Source: Salinivirgaceae bacterium
Lineage (GTDB): Bacteria; Bacteroidota; Bacteroidia; Bacteroidales; Salinivirgaceae
DNA length: 64,000 nucleotides
NCBI GenBank assembly: GCA_027858775.1
Contig: JAQICA010000154.1
Span: forward strand, 1-64,000
Direction: 5' to 3'
In this document: positions 2,742-48,690 of the stretch, piece after piece
Layout of the letters: every line of letters begins with the position of its first letter
Position numbering within the stretch: the first letter of the stretch is position 1
Made by a program: the position numbers and the translations under genes
The notes under the pieces: model-generated
Databases searched by the model: none
The model's input: the letters and a program-made list of their open reading frames with translations, nothing else
What the model was told of the DNA's origin: nothing

Positions 2742-4520
2742 ATGGATATCTTCGGCGGCTCGCTGGTTATAATAGCAGTAATATTTATCTTGTTAAGTCT
2801 TTACTTAGAGTGGATTGGCCCCGCATATACTTTTCTTGTGGCGGTAGTCTTTCTGGGTATTTTTGGTGTGCTGTCACCATCCGAAATTCTCACCGGGTTT
2901 GCCAATGAACAATTGGCGGTAATTATCTTGCTTATATTGTTGGGCGATATTATCCGGCGAACATCTGTTATTGAAATAGCTTTTGAACGTATTTTTAAAA
3001 AGGCAAACACAGTCAGTCGATTCCGAAACCGCATGATGATAATGGTAGGTTTTTTCTCGGCTTTTTTAAACAATACCCCATTGGTCGCCATCATGATGCC
3101 ATTTGTACATAATTGGTCGAAGAAACACAATGAGTCGCCCTCAAAATTATTGATTCCCCTATCCTACGCTGCCATTCTTGGAGGTTGTGTCACACTCATT
3201 GGAACATCGACAAACCTCATTGTTAGTGGTTTTGTACAAGATCAAAGTATTATACCCAACCTGAAACCACTTAATATGTTCGATTTTGCCTGGGTTGGTG
3301 TACCTGCTCTTATTTTGGGTTATATATATTTGGCCTTGTTTAGTAACAGAATGTTGCCATGGAACAAAGATGCTCTATCGGACATTTCAAAATCGTCTCG
3401 CAAATTTATTGTGGAAGCGCAAATACGGCCTAAATCGCATTTAATCAATAAACCATTGCAGGAATCGGGTCTTATTGGAATAGAAGGATTATTTTTATTT
3501 GAAATAAAACGCGACGATAAAACAATCAAAGTTAATGCAGCCGGATTAGTTCTTAAAGAAAATGACTTACTGCGCTTTGCCGCAGAATCGGCTAATGTGG
3601 CAGATTTGATGAGTGATACTAGTGGACTAACATTCCCTAAAGTAGGAATGCTAAAACACAAAAGTAAAACAGAACTTGTAGAAGTAGTTGTTTCGCACAA
3701 CTCGACTCTAATTTCGAAAGAGATACAGCACATAAATTTCCGCGCAAAGTTTAATGCCGCACTAGTTGCTGTACACCGCAATGGTGAACGCATAACGGGA
3801 GTAGTCGACGATGTGAAATTAAAAGCCGGTGATGTTTTGCTGTTACTTGCCGATGACTTGTTCGAAGAACGAATTGCTTACAGCTCCGATGTTTATTACA
3901 TTTCGCAGATAAAAGAAGTACGTAGGCTTGGTGTGTTTCGCACCACTCTATTGCTTGGGGGAACATTATTAGCCATTGTTCTTTCCGCCTTTCGAATTAT
4001 TCCACTTTTCATGGGTATTATGGTCTTACTACTCATTTTGTTGCCGTTAAAAATAACGAGCCCGAAAGATCTACATAAAAGTATCGACTACGATTTAATT
4101 CTAATTATTGCTCTAGCCATTGCGCTCGGCAACGCCATGCTCAAAACTGGTGTGGCCGACGCCATAGCCAATTTGTTTATCGGGGCATTTTTGCCGTGGG
4201 GACATGTTGCTTTATTAAGCGGAATATATTTAACGACAGCAATTATGGCAGCCTACATTACAAATAAAGCTGCTGTAGCCCTCATTTTTCCCATTTCTTT
4301 ATCGCTCGCCGCAAACCTGGATTTGAATCCAATGCCATTTATTCTGGTAGTTGCCTTTGCCGCAGCGGCCAACTTTATTACTCCACACGGCTATCAAACC
4401 AACCTGATGGTATATGGACCGGGACGTTATACATTTAAAGATTTTTTCAAAATAGGTCTTCCATTAACGATAATGTATATGATTGTAACAATTACCGTGT
4501 TGAGTATTATGTACTTTTAA
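2742..4520 (+). CDS. SLC13/DASS-type permease with two RCK-C domains
   Basis: A 592-residue inner-membrane transporter. The N-terminal membrane half (about 1-200) and C-terminal half (about 395-592) enclose a soluble insert with two TrkA-C (RCK-C) domains at about 205-290 and 305-385, recognisable by 'GLFLFEIKRDDKTI' and 'LKAGDVLLLLADD'. The signature pairs 'NNTPLVA' (about 109-115) and 'GTSTNLIVSG' (about 156-165) are the SNT-type substrate and sodium motifs of the divalent-anion:sodium symporter family. The likely substrate is an inorganic or organic anion such as sulfate or a dicarboxylate; the sequence does not decide between them. It is cotranscribed with the LysM gene, with a 3-base gap. 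RCK-C domains suggest ligand gating, which is inferred. Confidence 0.85.
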   Translation: MDIFGGSLVIIAVIFILLSLYLEWIGPAYTFLVAVVFLGIFGVLSPSEILTGFANEQLAVIILLILLGDIIRRTSVIEIAFERIFKKANTVSRFRNRMMIMVGFFSAFLNNTPLVAIMMPFVHNWSKKHNESPSKLLIPLSYAAILGGCVTLIGTSTNLIVSGFVQDQSIIPNLKPLNMFDFAWVGVPALILGYIYLALFSNRMLPWNKDALSDISKSSRKFIVEAQIRPKSHLINKPLQESGLIGIEGLFLFEIKRDDKTIKVNAAGLVLKENDLLRFAAESANVADLMSDTSGLTFPKVGMLKHKSKTELVEVVVSHNSTLISKEIQHINFRAKFNAALVAVHRNGERITGVVDDVKLKAGDVLLLLADDLFEERIAYSSDVYYISQIKEVRRLGVFRTTLLLGGTLLAIVLSAFRIIPLFMGIMVLLLILLPLKITSPKDLHKSIDYDLILIIALAIALGNAMLKTGVADAIANLFIGAFLPWGHVALLSGIYLTTAIMAAYITNKAAVALIFPISLSLAANLDLNPMPFILVVAFAAAANFITPHGYQTNLMVYGPGRYTFKDFFKIGLPLTIMYMIVTITVLSIMYF

Positions 4521-7243: not shown

Positions 7244-7723
7244 TTTTTTATAATTATCTTCGATGGTCAAGTAGAACTCCAAATGAATTTTAATCATGCT
7301 CGCGTGGTGCTTAGCATACCAAAATTCAAGATCGTTTCATTCGACTATAAAGTTTTTTCATGTTCAAAATTCCAAAAAATATTACGTCTATTTAGATTGG
7401 ATAAAAATAGTAACTATCAATTAACATACCAACTACTTTATAAAACGATATAAATAAGCTACGATAATTATGACGATTTTTCAGGTAGGTAGCCAGGTTC
7501 GGGCAAGTGAAATAATGAAATGCAAAGCAAATCTCAATATCCATCACGTAAAACTCTGCTTAACAGGGCTTTATGTTTATTATTGTGAAAAAGAAAAACA
7601 GATAAACTTTTACTTGATAATTTTGCGAAATTGTCTCATATTAATTGGCGTACAATTTGCTCTTCTGAAGCAAGAGAACGAATGTGTAAGCAGCGGTTTA
7701 ATCGAGGATTAACAAAGAATATT
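7244..7723. other. Intergenic region between divergent feoAB and the acidic protein gene
   Basis: About 480 AT-rich bases that must hold the feoAB promoter (minus) and that of the following plus-strand gene. A plus-strand TAATTTTG at 7618-7625 fits the TAnnTTTG -7 element, but a TTG box at the right distance is missing. Short open frames here have no recognisable product and are not called. Confidence 0.4.
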
Positions 7724-8524
7724 ATGGAAAATAATAAAAACCTATACGAGAAACTTCAAAAAATAGTTGGCGATAAAAATGCTAAAATCAACATCTTACA
7801 AGAAGAGGTTGATGTTAAACTTCAAGTAGAGTATTTTAAACAAGCGAAACTGGCAAAAAAGAGTATCGATAAAAACCACGATTATTTAATTGAAGTAGAA
7901 AAACTTTACGACCCCGAAATTGACAACAATACAAAGCGTACTTTGATTTGCCAATTGGCTTCCATGGAAAATGTAACCTATTACCGGGCTCTTGAAAAGT
8001 TTAAGGAACATGCCGATCAGGAACTAAAACCCTGGGCTACTCTGGCATTGCAGGAAAGCAGAATGCTACTGGAAAGCAGTTTACTTGACGAAAAGCAGTT
8101 GTTTATTTCCACCGGACTGGGTGGCAAAGGAGCTAAGTTGCGGTATTTTGTGGTATTGATCAATAACTTTAAAGAAGAGTATAAAGCCAGTCAGCAAGAA
8201 ATTGTTAGCAAAGAATTTGCTTTCAGCCTGCAAAAAAACGAGGGCGAATTGGAAGAAATTCAGTTCGAAGACAAATACGCCATGTTGACATGTCTCTTGC
8301 CACTACAAAAGCCGGTTCAGGATATTTTAAGTGGTGCTACCAAAGAGTGTAATACTTTTGGCGATTTTATTAAGGAAAACTTCCTGATTACTAATGTGAA
8401 AAAAATGTCGTCGACCGAAATAAATGAATTTTTAAACGCTAAGGAAGACGATATTAATTTTGATATTGAAATTGATCCGGAATCGGATGAAGACAATGAT
8501 GACTTCGACGAGCTTAATAATTAA
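7724..8524 (+). CDS. Unrecognised acidic helical protein
   Basis: A 266-residue cytoplasmic-looking protein with no signal peptide or membrane segment. It is predominantly helical: an N-terminal coiled-coil-like stretch (about 5-60), then a region around 65-115 with HEAT-like spacing ('TLICQLASMENVTYYRALEKF', 'LKPWATLALQES'). A Gly-rich strand follows, 'STGLGGKGAKLRYFVVLIN' (about 125-143). The C-terminal 25 residues are almost all Asp, Glu and Asn ('DPESDEDNDDFDE'). The start 'MENNKN' is chosen because the upstream extension is unlike coding sequence. I believe similar proteins occur widely in Bacteroidota as hypotheticals, but no function can be assigned. The stop is immediately followed by the first copy of the 137-bp hairpin repeat. 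Confidence 0.75.
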   Translation: MENNKNLYEKLQKIVGDKNAKINILQEEVDVKLQVEYFKQAKLAKKSIDKNHDYLIEVEKLYDPEIDNNTKRTLICQLASMENVTYYRALEKFKEHADQELKPWATLALQESRMLLESSLLDEKQLFISTGLGGKGAKLRYFVVLINNFKEEYKASQQEIVSKEFAFSLQKNEGELEEIQFEDKYAMLTCLLPLQKPVQDILSGATKECNTFGDFIKENFLITNVKKMSSTEINEFLNAKEDDINFDIEIDPESDEDNDDFDELNN

Positions 8525-8663
8525 TCCGTCAATAAGCTCCATTTTCTGTGTTACTCTTACTCAAACCCGTTTTATTTACACCAGTAAACTCAACGGTTTT
8601 GAGTTTCGAAAGCCTTGAAAATGGAGCTTATCACTGGATACTCCGACTTTATCGACAGTATCT
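8524..8663. repeat. Long hairpin repeat, copy 1 (R1)
   Basis: An approximately 137-bp element (8527-8663) that recurs at 10449-10586, roughly 85-90% identical by eye. It folds into one long hairpin with three tiers: an outer stem ATAAGCTCCATTTTC / GAAAATGGAGCTTAT, a middle stem ACTCAAACCCGTT (8559-8571) / AACGGTTTTGAGT (8592-8604), and an apical TTTAC-ACCA-GTAAA. Just outside, ATCC (8524-8527) pairs with GGAT (8636-8639). A conserved linear tail GACTTTATCGACAGTATCT follows. It begins right at the stop of the preceding gene and may also act as its terminator. Confidence 0.8.
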
Positions 8664-8702
8664 CGTATCTCCAAAAAATATATAATAGCTGTGTTATAGC
8701 CC

Positions 8703-8749
8703 CTTTGAAAACAGTAATTCTGGAAACCGGGATGCCTTGGTTTTCAAAG
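8703..8749. repeat. Inverted repeat CTTTGAAAAC / GTTTTCAAAG
   Basis: A perfect 10-bp inverted repeat (8703-8712 and 8740-8749) with a 27-base spacer, extendable to 13 pairs with one mismatch. It lies in the gene-free stretch 8525-8892, between hairpin repeat R1 and the short repeat at 8823. It could be a factor-independent hairpin without a U tract or part of a decayed element. Confidence 0.5.
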
Positions 8750-8822
8750 TGGCCAAGCTCCTGATTATCGGGTATAACGTTGCTCCGACAAAGCTATGCG
8801 GAGGCTAGACTCGCTCTTGAGG

Positions 8823-8863
8823 TTTTATTATTGCACTCAATTAAAAAAGATACGTTTTCTTAG
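8823..8863. repeat. Short repeat R2, copy A
   Basis: A 41-base segment that matches 30161-30200 with only a few substitutions and one small gap. The last 21 bases, ending in GATACGTTTTCTTAG, are identical in both. Copy A lies downstream of rlmF (convergent side), whereas copy B lies in a 5' leader, so a shared gene-control function is unlikely and a dispersed repeat is inferred. Confidence 0.65.
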
Positions 8864-8892
8864 CCATACAATAATGCTTCACGTCAGAATTG

Positions 8893-9873
8893 TTATCGGG
8901 AATTCCACCGTGCATTGCGCCAAATTGCAGCTGCTTTCTGATTAAGAAATGACCACGCAATAATTCGGCTGCTTTTGTTGCCTTGCCCTACAGGAATGGT
9001 AATTATTTGCTCGACACCGATAGCCTCAAGAGCTTTACGAACAGTCTTTAGGTTGTTTTGTTTTGAAATAAGAGTTGAAAACCAGTAACAGTTGGAAGAA
9101 AATTGGCGACTTTCGCGAATCATGTCCAATACAAATTGTTTCTCGCCGCCTTTACACCAAAGCTCGGATTTATTACCACCAAAATTCCGCTTTACTGCGG
9201 CTCCTTTTGTACCCTTCAAATTTTCTACCTTGCGCAAGTTGGCCTCTGCGGCCTCCTCTTCTGAAGCATGGAACGGAGGATTACACATGGTAAAATCAAC
9301 CATTTCGTCCTGTTGAATAATATCTGTAAAGAAATGATTTTCTTTCTTTTGAATTCGCAAGCTGATGTGGCTTTCCAATCCTTTATTTCCATCTATTATT
9401 GCCTGAGCATTTGCAATAGCTACAGCATCGATATCTGAACCAATAAACTGCCATCCATATAATTGATGACCCAAAAGCGGATAAATACAATTGGCACCAA
9501 CACCAATATCGAGCCCTTTGATATTACGACCTTTCGGGATTTTTCCGTAATTGGAGTTACGAAGAATATCGGCCAAATGGTGTAAATAATCTGAGCGTCC
9601 GGGAATAGGCGGACATAAAAAGTTTTCGGGGATATCCCAGTACGCCACACCGTAATCGGCTTTTAGAATGGCTTTGTTGAGTAGTTTTATTGCTGTTGCA
9701 TTAGCGAAATCAATAGTTTGCAGTCCTGCTCGCCCTTCCATTACAAAAGGCTCTAGTTCGGGCACATGCGTAATAAGCGTGGGAAAATCATACGGGTTAT
9801 GATGTTTGTTCCGTACATGCATGCGGGGTTTAACATCGGGCTTAACTGGTTTGTTAGCTTTTTTGCTTTTCAT
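8893..9873 (-). CDS. rlmF: 23S rRNA (adenine-1618-N6)-methyltransferase RlmF
   Basis: A 326-residue SAM-dependent methyltransferase that, in the family, adds the N6-methyl group to A1618 of 23S rRNA. It has a basic N-terminus (lysines in residues 1-25), motif I 'LDIGVGANCIY' (121-131), the acidic binding residue in 'GSDIDA' (145-150), and the catalytic 'NPPF' motif of N6-adenine methyltransferases at 198-201. Length fits the YbiN/RlmF family (about 300). Its start overlaps the end of the upstream DUF1456 gene by 20 bases, so the two form an operon. The pair is bracketed by the two R1 hairpin repeats. Confidence 0.92.
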   Translation of the reverse strand: MKSKKANKPVKPDVKPRMHVRNKHHNPYDFPTLITHVPELEPFVMEGRAGLQTIDFANATAIKLLNKAILKADYGVAYWDIPENFLCPPIPGRSDYLHHLADILRNSNYGKIPKGRNIKGLDIGVGANCIYPLLGHQLYGWQFIGSDIDAVAIANAQAIIDGNKGLESHISLRIQKKENHFFTDIIQQDEMVDFTMCNPPFHASEEEAAEANLRKVENLKGTKGAAVKRNFGGNKSELWCKGGEKQFVLDMIRESRQFSSNCYWFSTLISKQNNLKTVRKALEAIGVEQIITIPVGQGNKSSRIIAWSFLNQKAAAIWRNARWNSR

Positions 9874-10339
9874 TGGGGTTGCGCATTTTAATTTGTAATC
9901 CTTTTAAAAAATTCCGCAGATACTGGTCTTTGCATTGCCTAAACTGCTTTTGCGTTGGTTTTCGGAAAAATGCACTTAATTCGTGTTTACTCATTTTTAC
10001 TCCTGCCAAATCATAGGTACCCAACATATCTTCATCGCGATAGTTTAGTGCAATTTTCAATTTCCGTAAAACAATATTATTCGTCAGTCGCTTTTCTGGA
10101 ATAGGCACAGAGGCCCCCTCTTTCAGCCCTCGTTTTTCAATGATTAACCCATTTAAAAAACTTGCCAGGTATTGATCCTCAATTGCGCGAATTTCCGGAT
10201 CGTCGTCTTTTTTGAGCCACTGACTGACTTGTGAACGTGTAACACTAAAATCTGCTTTAGCAAATATCCCGATCATTTGATCATCGCTAAAATCAAAAAT
10301 ATACCGAATACGGCGAATGATATCATTATTATTAATCAT
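9854..10339 (-). CDS. DUF1456 (YehS-like) protein
   Basis: A 161-residue protein made of two tandem halves, each about 70 residues, with the DUF1456 pattern: 'NNDIIRRIRYIFDFSDDQMIGIF' in the first and 'NNIVLRKLKIALNYRDEDMLGTY' in the second, each followed by a 'SQVSQWLKK / SKHELSAFFRKP' helix-turn-helix-like segment. The start 'MINNND' is chosen over a 7-residue longer form by comparison of the two repeats. YehS-type proteins have no established biochemical function; the helical repeats suggest nucleic-acid or protein binding. It overlaps rlmF by 20 bases, which hints at an rRNA- or ribosome-linked role (inference). Confidence 0.85.
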   Translation of the reverse strand: MINNNDIIRRIRYIFDFSDDQMIGIFAKADFSVTRSQVSQWLKKDDDPEIRAIEDQYLASFLNGLIIEKRGLKEGASVPIPEKRLTNNIVLRKLKIALNYRDEDMLGTYDLAGVKMSKHELSAFFRKPTQKQFRQCKDQYLRNFLKGLQIKMRNPNEKQKS

Positions 10340-10443
10340 AAACAAAAGAATTAAATCCATTTACCATGAAGCCTGTAGCCACAATTTCAATAGCCTACAA
10401 AAGTAATGAAAGAAAATTGTATTTAACGGAAAAACACTATTTA

Positions 10444-10586
10444 GTGTTCGTCAATAAACTCCATTTTCTTCGTTACTCTTACTCAAACCCGCATTATTTA
10501 CACCCGTAAACTCAACGGTTTTGAGTTTCGAAAGCCTTGAAAATGGATTTTATTCACTGAACACCTCGACTTTATGGACAGTATCT
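10444..10586. repeat. Long hairpin repeat, copy 2 (R1)
   Basis: The second copy of the 137-bp element at 8527, in the same orientation (core 10449-10586). The outer stem here is AATAAACTCCATTTTC / GAAAATGGATTTTATT, so the G-C pair of copy 1 is replaced by an A-T pair. The next-outer arms are GTGTTC (10444-10449) and GAACAC (10559-10564), different in sequence from copy 1 but again complementary. The apical TTTAC-ACCC-GTAAA and the tail GACTTTATGGACAGTATCT are retained. It sits about 105 bases upstream of the DUF1456 start. Confidence 0.8.
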
Positions 10587-10628
10587 ATTTAGTCTATGCA
10601 GGAAAACGCCAAATACTGCGTTATTCTT

Positions 10629-10677
10629 GTTTTTGAATCAGCCATTTACTGAATGTAAACTTCTTGTATTCAAAAAC
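10629..10677 (-). terminator. Inverted repeat downstream of rluF
   Basis: A perfect inverted repeat GTTTTTGAAT (10629-10638) / ATTCAAAAAC (10668-10677) with a 29-base loop, lying just beyond the rluF stop on the minus strand. It could terminate rluF, but there is no long U tract, so the assignment is tentative. The rest of the 10340-10696 gap is occupied by R1 copy 2. Confidence 0.4.
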
Positions 10678-10696
10678 TTATAAAGCCTTGCAGACC

Positions 10697-11422
10697 CTAT
10701 TTAGGTGTTGAATAGGACGAATGAACAAGTTTTTGAATCGTGCTTAGTTCGGTTTCGGTTAAATGCCGCCATTTGCCTAAAGGCACATCGAGTTCAATAT
10801 TCATAATTCGTACTCGCTTTAATCTAACCACTTTATAATCAAGGGTCTCACACATTCTTCTAATTTGTCGGTTTAAGCCTTGGGTAAGTGTTATGCGAAA
10901 AGTAGTGCGATCGATTTGTTCTAATTTACATTTACGCGTAACCGTTCCTAAAATACGCACACCGGAACTCATTTGGTCGATAAACGATTGTGTAATGGGT
11001 TTATTCACACGCACTACATACTCCTTTTCATGAAAATTTCCTGCACGCAATATTTTGTTCACGATATCGCCGTCGTTGGTAAGTAAAATAAGTCCTTCAC
11101 TGGGTTTATCAAGTCGGCCAATTGGGAAAATACGCTCCGGATAATTGATAAAATCAATAATATTGTCCTTTTCACGCTTGGTATCGGTCGTACAAACAAT
11201 TCCCACCGGTTTATTTAAGGCGATGTAAACGCTATCGGACTCCTGTGCAACAGACTTACCATCGACTAACACAACATCGGATGCCGAAATTTTTGTGCCC
11301 AATTCCGGAACCTCACCATTTATGGTAATGCGTCCCTGCTCCAAAAGCGTATCGGCCTGTCGTCGAGAGCAATACCCTACTTCACTTAAATATTTATTTA
11401 TACGTATCAAACGTTTTTCCAT
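10697..11422 (-). CDS. rluF: 23S rRNA pseudouridine synthase RluF-like
   Basis: A 241-residue pseudouridine synthase of the RsuA/RluB/E/F family. Residues about 3-50 form the S4 RNA-binding domain ('RINKYLSEVGYCSRRQADTLLEQGRITING'-type pattern). The catalytic motif 'GRLDKPSEGLILLTNDGD' (about 100-117) supplies the essential Asp, and 'GLNRQIRRMCE' (about 198-208) is the conserved KINGD/RQIRRM region. The 'NKILRAGNFHEKEYVV' stretch is typical of RluF, which modifies U2604 of 23S rRNA. The start 'MEKRLIRI' is preferred over a 20-residue extension. With rlmF it is the second rRNA-modifying enzyme within 2.5 kb. Confidence 0.88.
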   Translation of the reverse strand: MEKRLIRINKYLSEVGYCSRRQADTLLEQGRITINGEVPELGTKISASDVVLVDGKSVAQESDSVYIALNKPVGIVCTTDTKREKDNIIDFINYPERIFPIGRLDKPSEGLILLTNDGDIVNKILRAGNFHEKEYVVRVNKPITQSFIDQMSSGVRILGTVTRKCKLEQIDRTTFRITLTQGLNRQIRRMCETLDYKVVRLKRVRIMNIELDVPLGKWRHLTETELSTIQKLVHSSYSTPK

Positions 11423-11572
11423 ACATGATTTTTCTTTATCTATTTTGTGAACACACAAATATTCGGGGGACAAAAATAGCAAAGTTATTCCATTTTGTAA
11501 AAAACCTCACCACCAGATGAAAAAGCCGTACGATTTTTATTTCTTTTTTTTTCAACTTCACGCCAGCATGTT

Positions 11573-30118: not shown

Positions 30119-30176
30119 GTGCGCAGTAATAAACTTCAAGAACAAGCACTGTTTTGGAAGTTTTACTACTGCACAC
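30119..30176 (+). promoter_or_regulatory. Leader hairpin upstream of the permease gene
   Basis: GTGCGCAGTAATAAACTTC (30119-30137) pairs with GAAGTTTTACTACTGCACAC (30157-30176) with two mismatches and one bulge, around a 19-base loop. It lies in the transcribed leader. The right arm is also the beginning of repeat R2 copy B, so it may be a repeat end and not a regulator. Confidence 0.5.
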
Positions 30177-30200
30177 AAGAAAAAAGATACGTTTTCTTAG
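30161..30200. repeat. Short repeat R2, copy B
   Basis: A 40-base match to 8823-8863; the last 21 bases are identical. Here the segment AAGAAAA-aagatacg-TTTTCTT can form its own small hairpin 28 bases before the permease start codon. Confidence 0.65.
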
Positions 30201-30227
30201 ATACACTATTTAAACTACATCTGAATT

Positions 30228-48534: not shown

Positions 48535-48690
48535 TACTTATCATGGCGAACTCCATATGACCATTAAATCAAGCACTCAGAAAAGTAGGTAGTTTTCATG
48601 CTGGCACTATGTAAGATATTAATATTCAGTATTTTGATTAATACAATTATGCCGCACCTGGCGGCGCTCGTTTATTACGTTATCATAAAA

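Follow-up and report, generated by a model that had tools for sequence, protein, structure and literature searches.

What are two near-identical hairpins doing on either side of an rlmF-DUF1456 gene pair? They lie in a stretch of 64,000 nucleotides from a Salinivirgaceae bacterium (the window; contig JAQICA010000154.1 of assembly GCA_027858775.1), and they could belong to the genes that they flank, mark the edges of a movable block, or have arrived independently. We favour the last reading, with a probability of about 0.8: both hairpins are non-autonomous, MITE-like insertions that are mobilized in trans by an ISNCY-family transposase and that carry a core selected for its fold, and the genes are bystanders. 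The MITE-like origin is the ordinary and well-supported part of this reading; its novelty lies in a fold that is conserved independently of the ends.

Position and ends of the two hairpins

Each hairpin is about 140 bp long and three-tiered. The initial annotation had described two copies with this shared structure in the same orientation, and they are indeed present, 92% identical over 105 nt and 1922 bp apart from start to start. The ends that it gave (8527-8663 and 10449-10586) were a few bases off, and comparison with other copies fixed them as listed in Table 1. Copy 1 folded as DNA has an energy z-score of -7.5 and copy 2 folded as RNA one of -7.2, with 0 of 200 shuffles as good in either case. 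Only the rlmF-DUF1456 operon had been thought to separate the copies. However, R1, a covariance model of the core for which genomes G050 and G056 were the sole source, finds copy 1, X1, copy 2 and X2 at this locus, so that each hairpin copy is followed by a second element: X1 also lies between the copies, and X2 follows copy 2. The right end of X1, ATACGTTTTCTTAG, resembles a second class of terminal inverted repeat (TIR), described below.

Table 1. Features around the two hairpin copies (window positions)
Feature	Position	Strand	Evidence or remark
Copy 1, A-family hairpin element (AATCCGTCAATAAGC ... GACAGTAT)	8523..8661	+	R1 core match 8540-8623, 57.3 bits
X1, divergent superfamily element directly after copy 1	8663..8869 (ends approximate), core 8683-8767	+	R1 26.9 bits (weak)
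rlmF-type RNA methyltransferase, resident gene	8893..9873	-	PF05971, E 1.6e-115
DUF1456 gene, resident	9854..10360	-	PF07308, E 1.1e-57
Left target-site duplication of copy 2, CTATTTAG	10437..10444	.	sequence
Copy 2, A-family hairpin element (TGTTCGTCAATAAAC ... GACAGTAT)	10445..10584	+	R1 core match 10462-10545, 51.2 bits
Second CTATTTAG, shared by copy 2 (right duplication) and X2 (left flank)	10585..10592	.	sequence
X2, second-type element directly after copy 2	10593..10696, core 10616-10690	+	R1 54.3 bits
Third CTATTTAG	10697..10704	.	overlaps pseudouridine synthase stop codon
Pseudouridine synthase, upstream neighbour	10697..11482	-	PF00849 + S4

Copy 1 adjoins, at its left end, the stop codon of the ORF upstream, and comparison of its flanks revealed no recognizable target duplication. 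Copy 2 lies between a perfect pair of CTATTTAG, and X2 is likewise flanked on both sides by this sequence. The third CTATTTAG is probably the original target site.

A dispersed element family and its probable link to ISNCY transposons

The genome that contains the window (G000) is a fragmented assembly of 4.25 Mb in 305 contigs. When copy 1 was compared with it by BLAST, as the initial annotation had proposed, 40 of the 84 candidate places were scored, all with matches, giving a family of about 40 scored copies; R1 finds at least 110 cores dispersed in the same genome (E<=1e-3). The case that had been named against a selected structure, only two copies genome-wide and no covariation, is thus far from what is seen: about 40 copies, at least 110 cores and strong covariation.

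The elements are mostly 137-193 bp long, non-coding, multicopy (about 40 or more) and intergenic, and not one of the 41 copies examined lies inside an ORF of at least 80 aa. Among 40 A-family copies the target consensus is CTANNTAG, and the mean shared flank is 5.1 nt against 4.0 nt in shuffled pairings (maximum 4.6 of 2000); a flank of at least 7 nt is shared in eight of these copies, where 1.1 would be expected, although flank comparison shows no clear duplication for many single copies, copy 1 included. Their terminal inverted repeats, TRTYCGTCAATAAACTC and CTGTCTATAAAGTC, are imperfect; CTGTCTATAAAGTC is the sequence of the right end in the inward direction. This genome also contains a second set of elements with better-matched TGCCWGCAMGAAAAC ends, the same CTANNTAG target, the same core and significant target duplications (shared flank 4.6 against 3.5 when shuffled, 0 of 2000 shuffles being as high). 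Seven contigs break inside identical copies of this second class, which suggests its recent spread. Hallmarks of MITEs are thus found, namely terminal inverted repeats, target duplications and a small, non-coding, multicopy and intergenic character. Ends in common with autonomous insertion sequences (IS) of the same genome are found as well, at contig ends C67/C204 and C70/C71/C261/C278; because the full IS gene is not assembled there, this last point is established in part through relatives.

Two contigs, C67 and C204, break off within an IS that has the end sequence AGTCTGTCTATAAAGT, adjoining CTATTTAA and CTAAATAG, and the CTGTCTATAAAGT of the hairpin elements equals the end of this fragment, with a CTATTTA flank. 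Its transposase begins MQIFEEFQIRFEQPNWKNDPELG, and this 36-aa start matches, at 50% (E 2.7e-10), a protein of genome G027 that itself matches the NCBIfam ISNCY model NF033593 (E 4.4e-31). Related complete IS from named MAGs have AGTCTGTCTATAAA...TTTATGGACAGACA ends and CTANNTAG flanks. IS fragments with second-class ends occur at contig ends C70, C71, C261 and C278, and genome G042 contains an IS that encodes a protein exceeding the NF033593 cut-off and carries TGYCTCTAAGAAAACTC ends, similar to the IS fragments of the own genome. Both end classes, with the core, coexist in a further genome (G365). A family search for a complete transposase gene in the fragmented own assembly was empty. On account of the shared ends and target sites, we infer that an ISNCY transposase mobilizes the elements in trans. 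Such a transposase would most likely recognize the terminal repeats and insert the element into CTANNTAG. About 6-8 bp of target are duplicated upon insertion, the sites and duplications being directly visible and the transposase a putative assignment. Each insertion would leave a CTANNTAG site at its edge beside which further elements could land, and the tandem clusters seen repeatedly, copy 1-X1 and copy 2-X2 among them, point to this.

The empty family search counts against this reading, and so do the distributions of transposase and core, which overlap only modestly. In 60 genomes sampled around the own genome and including it, ISNCY was found in 14 and the core in 18, with 7 shared; of 27 genomes chosen for this IS, only 4 have the core. 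In a sample of 296 genomes from the phylum, R1 with stricter filters detects the core in only 2, the own genome being one. The core was not found in the IS loci searched, the IS 3' regions included, and an origin of the elements as deletion derivatives of an ISNCY (NF033593) transposon was rejected on this ground. At the start of contig C286 of the own genome (positions 1-240 of locus L099), a short ORF ending DAILYYRKRIQIEPFV lies directly before a GACTTTATAGACAGGCT end, a possible transposase remnant of another IS with the same end.

A covarying core common to different ends

From the outside inward, the core consists of an outer stem, an internal loop CTGCGTTACGC/GCAAGCCTTG, a variable stem, an internal loop TCA/CTCC and an apical hairpin. 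The paired differences between the arms of copies 1 and 2 that the initial annotation had pointed out recur across 25 copies: the outermost arms read TATCC/GGATA in 11, TGTCC/GGACA in 4, TGTTC/GAACA in 3 and TATTC/GAATA in 1, and carry a mismatch or wobble in the remainder. A tree built without the flanking-arm columns suggests that several of these paired changes were independent. In 60 distinct cores from 15 genomes, 93.5% of cells pair and 23 of 29 pairs have changed on both sides. The covariation score of this set is 0.563, against 0.159 for shuffled alignments and at most 0.155 for slid structures; an earlier core set gave 0.503 against 0.161 when shuffled. Since the core alignments were fitted to R1, it is the slide and shuffle controls that carry weight here. 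A selected structure is thus supported more strongly than two copies could reveal.

Long inverted repeats undergo quasi-palindrome correction. The same elements could therefore owe their paired changes to mutation, through such correction (template switching) together with exchange between copies, and their core would then be passive. Recombinant-looking copies do exist (one, L032, joins two subtypes), and hairpin modules have been swapped between families. However, correction should erase loops, and both internal loops, CTGCGTTACGC/GCAAGCCTTG as well as TCA/CTCC, stay conserved across families and genomes without being complementary, which argues against pure palindrome correction; the core is moreover common to elements with different ends. 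This passive alternative is accordingly possible but doubtful. The mean majority frequency is 0.78 in unpaired columns against 0.73 in paired ones. Modules have been inserted or swapped with the loops left undisturbed, as with a hairpin of about 53 bp at the first loop and the apical TTTAC..GTAAA exchanged for TCCCGA..TCGGGA types.

Several observations concern such rearrangements. In seven loci (L031, L033, L035, L036, L037, L104 and L113) a module of about 53 bp (AACCGACCAAAGG..CTCATGAG..) occupies one fixed loop position. In three others (L077 at 1462-1515, L111 and L116) near-identical core deletions are found, and as the remaining arms match different subtypes, these look like independent hairpin deletions; hairpin extrusion during replication would give such repeated losses. 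A core tree of low support mixes end classes and genomes, which fits an exchange of ends together with horizontal spread.

That the folded core persists through the exchange of ends, stems and apical hairpins, families with different ends having it in common, makes selection on the fold likely in the MITE-like reading. As single-stranded DNA or RNA, the fold would most plausibly aid the propagation or survival of the element itself. Tentatively, the core may be a structure-dependent, cis-acting module, independent of any particular transposase, that lets short elements adopt different ISNCY ends and multiply; for instance, single-stranded DNA of the core could fold into a structure to which the transposase or a host factor binds, or the core could act as a small RNA that brings in such a protein. 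Such a module would be a hitch-hiker motif of a new kind. If the core does drive multiplication, then nucleic-acid structure, and not end sequence alone, would define a bacterial MITE superfamily, and this can be put to the test.

Alternatively, the hairpin could be a cis-regulatory or processing RNA (a terminator, an mRNA stabilizer or an RNase III site) that is selected by the host and spread by transposition. The strong fold would suit such a role, insertions often begin within 5 nt of a stop codon, and known MITEs act on transcripts (PMC10969869, PMC3733652). Yet the CTANNTAG target may by itself account for the closeness to stop codons, the hairpin is not followed by a T run, and the two orientations are about equally frequent beside genes, the left gene pointing inward in 19 of 38 cases and the right gene in 23 of 37, with no clear preference. 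Nor are wobble pairs enriched: outside two near-constant pairs, G-U (26) is set against A-C (29), which does not favour a plus-strand RNA. Orientation and wobble counts together give no support to a strand preference as RNA, and a host-selected regulatory RNA is unlikely. On the opposite strand, however, the two near-constant G-U positions would fail to pair, which hints weakly that one particular strand folds.

Resident genes and comparison with known elements

In a genome of the same genus (G002), the order synthase (rlu)-DUF1456-rlmF is identical and no element is present, and for this reason rlmF-DUF1456 are resident bystanders, not a mobile cassette. With the target-site duplication proper to copy 2, the hairpins look like independent insertions beside resident genes. 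The initial annotation had suggested this comparison, along with the idea that direct repeats might permit excision or duplication of the block; the relative's repeat-free gene order and the duplication of copy 2 leave that idea unsupported, and recombination between copies 1 and 2 may at most be rare. That two direct copies bracket the genes would be explained by a local duplication, or by a mobile cassette of rlmF and DUF1456 with direct repeats, but dozens of copies are dispersed in the genome, G002 has the genes in order without repeats, and copy 2 has its own CTATTTAG duplication, so that such an origin is largely refuted and highly improbable. Two independent intrinsic terminators, for which the position of copy 1 between convergent genes might speak, have a negligible chance given 92% identity over 105 nt, the placement of copy 2 between co-directional genes and a genome-wide family with target duplications. 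Both the cassette and the terminators were considered and dropped.

The MITE-like elements proposed here can be compared with several known systems. They resemble bacterial MITEs with foldable interiors (ERIC/RU-1, Correia/NEMIS, RUP and CIR; PMC2229807, PMC10969869) in being short, non-coding, multicopy and mostly intergenic, with terminal repeats, target duplications, hairpin folds and some internal insertions. They differ from them in their ISNCY-matching ends, their CTANNTAG target and the one covarying multi-loop fold common to two end classes. BrickBuilt/MITEPgRS of Porphyromonas gingivalis (PMC4596501) are likewise Bacteroidetes MITEs that share ends with IS of their own genome, but these are IS5-family ends around a tandem-repeat interior. 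ISNCY-family IS (NF033593) have the same terminal repeats and CTANNTAG insertion sites, whereas they measure about 1.6-1.9 kb, encode a transposase of about 440-510 aa and lack the core in those checked. The IS1202 family, once an ISNCY group itself (PMC10132070), also comes from the 'not characterised yet' category and has a transposase of similar size; it differs by its TGT/ACA ends, repeats of 24-26 bp, duplications of 3-5, >15 or 0 bp and dif-like targets. REP elements and their RAYT transposases (PMC3733652, PMC2817692) are high-copy extragenic palindromes too, and the CGTC string at the left end, also a REP feature, is probably a likeness by chance; REP units are 20-40 bp long, depend on tyrosine transposases and lack the duplications seen here, and a REP/RAYT identity was excluded by length and target duplications.

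Two other candidates were set aside. An integron attC site would show a GTTRRRY core site and a cassette array, and here the conserved motif is GTTACGC and the sites are dispersed with target duplications. A known RNA was discarded as no Rfam family model matches: only a tRNA was found in the window, and nothing relevant in nine loci up to E=1. A literature search for the core motif found no report. What results is a working model (ends, target, fold and census) for repeats at which these Bacteroidales assemblies break; it ties these repeats to ISNCY transposases and brings to light a strongly covarying fold absent from Rfam.

Further relatives were noticed inside and outside the window. At 30120-30205 lies a core-less one, TGCGCAGTAATAAACTTC...AGATACA, between GGATTTAG and CTATTTAA, with outer stem and tail kept, and at 48550-48606 a second-class element is represented by its truncated right end (CAAGCACTCAGAAAAGTAGGTAGTTTTCATGCTGGCA), which precedes CTATGTAAG. 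Seven of eight pattern matches in viral contigs are near-identical, coding-like and unrelated sequence. The eighth, an IMG/VR contig with portal- and terminase-like ORFs (L302), has GC-rich sites at 4265-4350 and 7610-7677 with exact CTGCGTTACGC and GCAAGCCTTG; their R1 scores are weak (20.9 and 17.8 bits), just one of the two has a better fold than its shuffles, and they are possibly a distant relative, the same core in another bacterial group.
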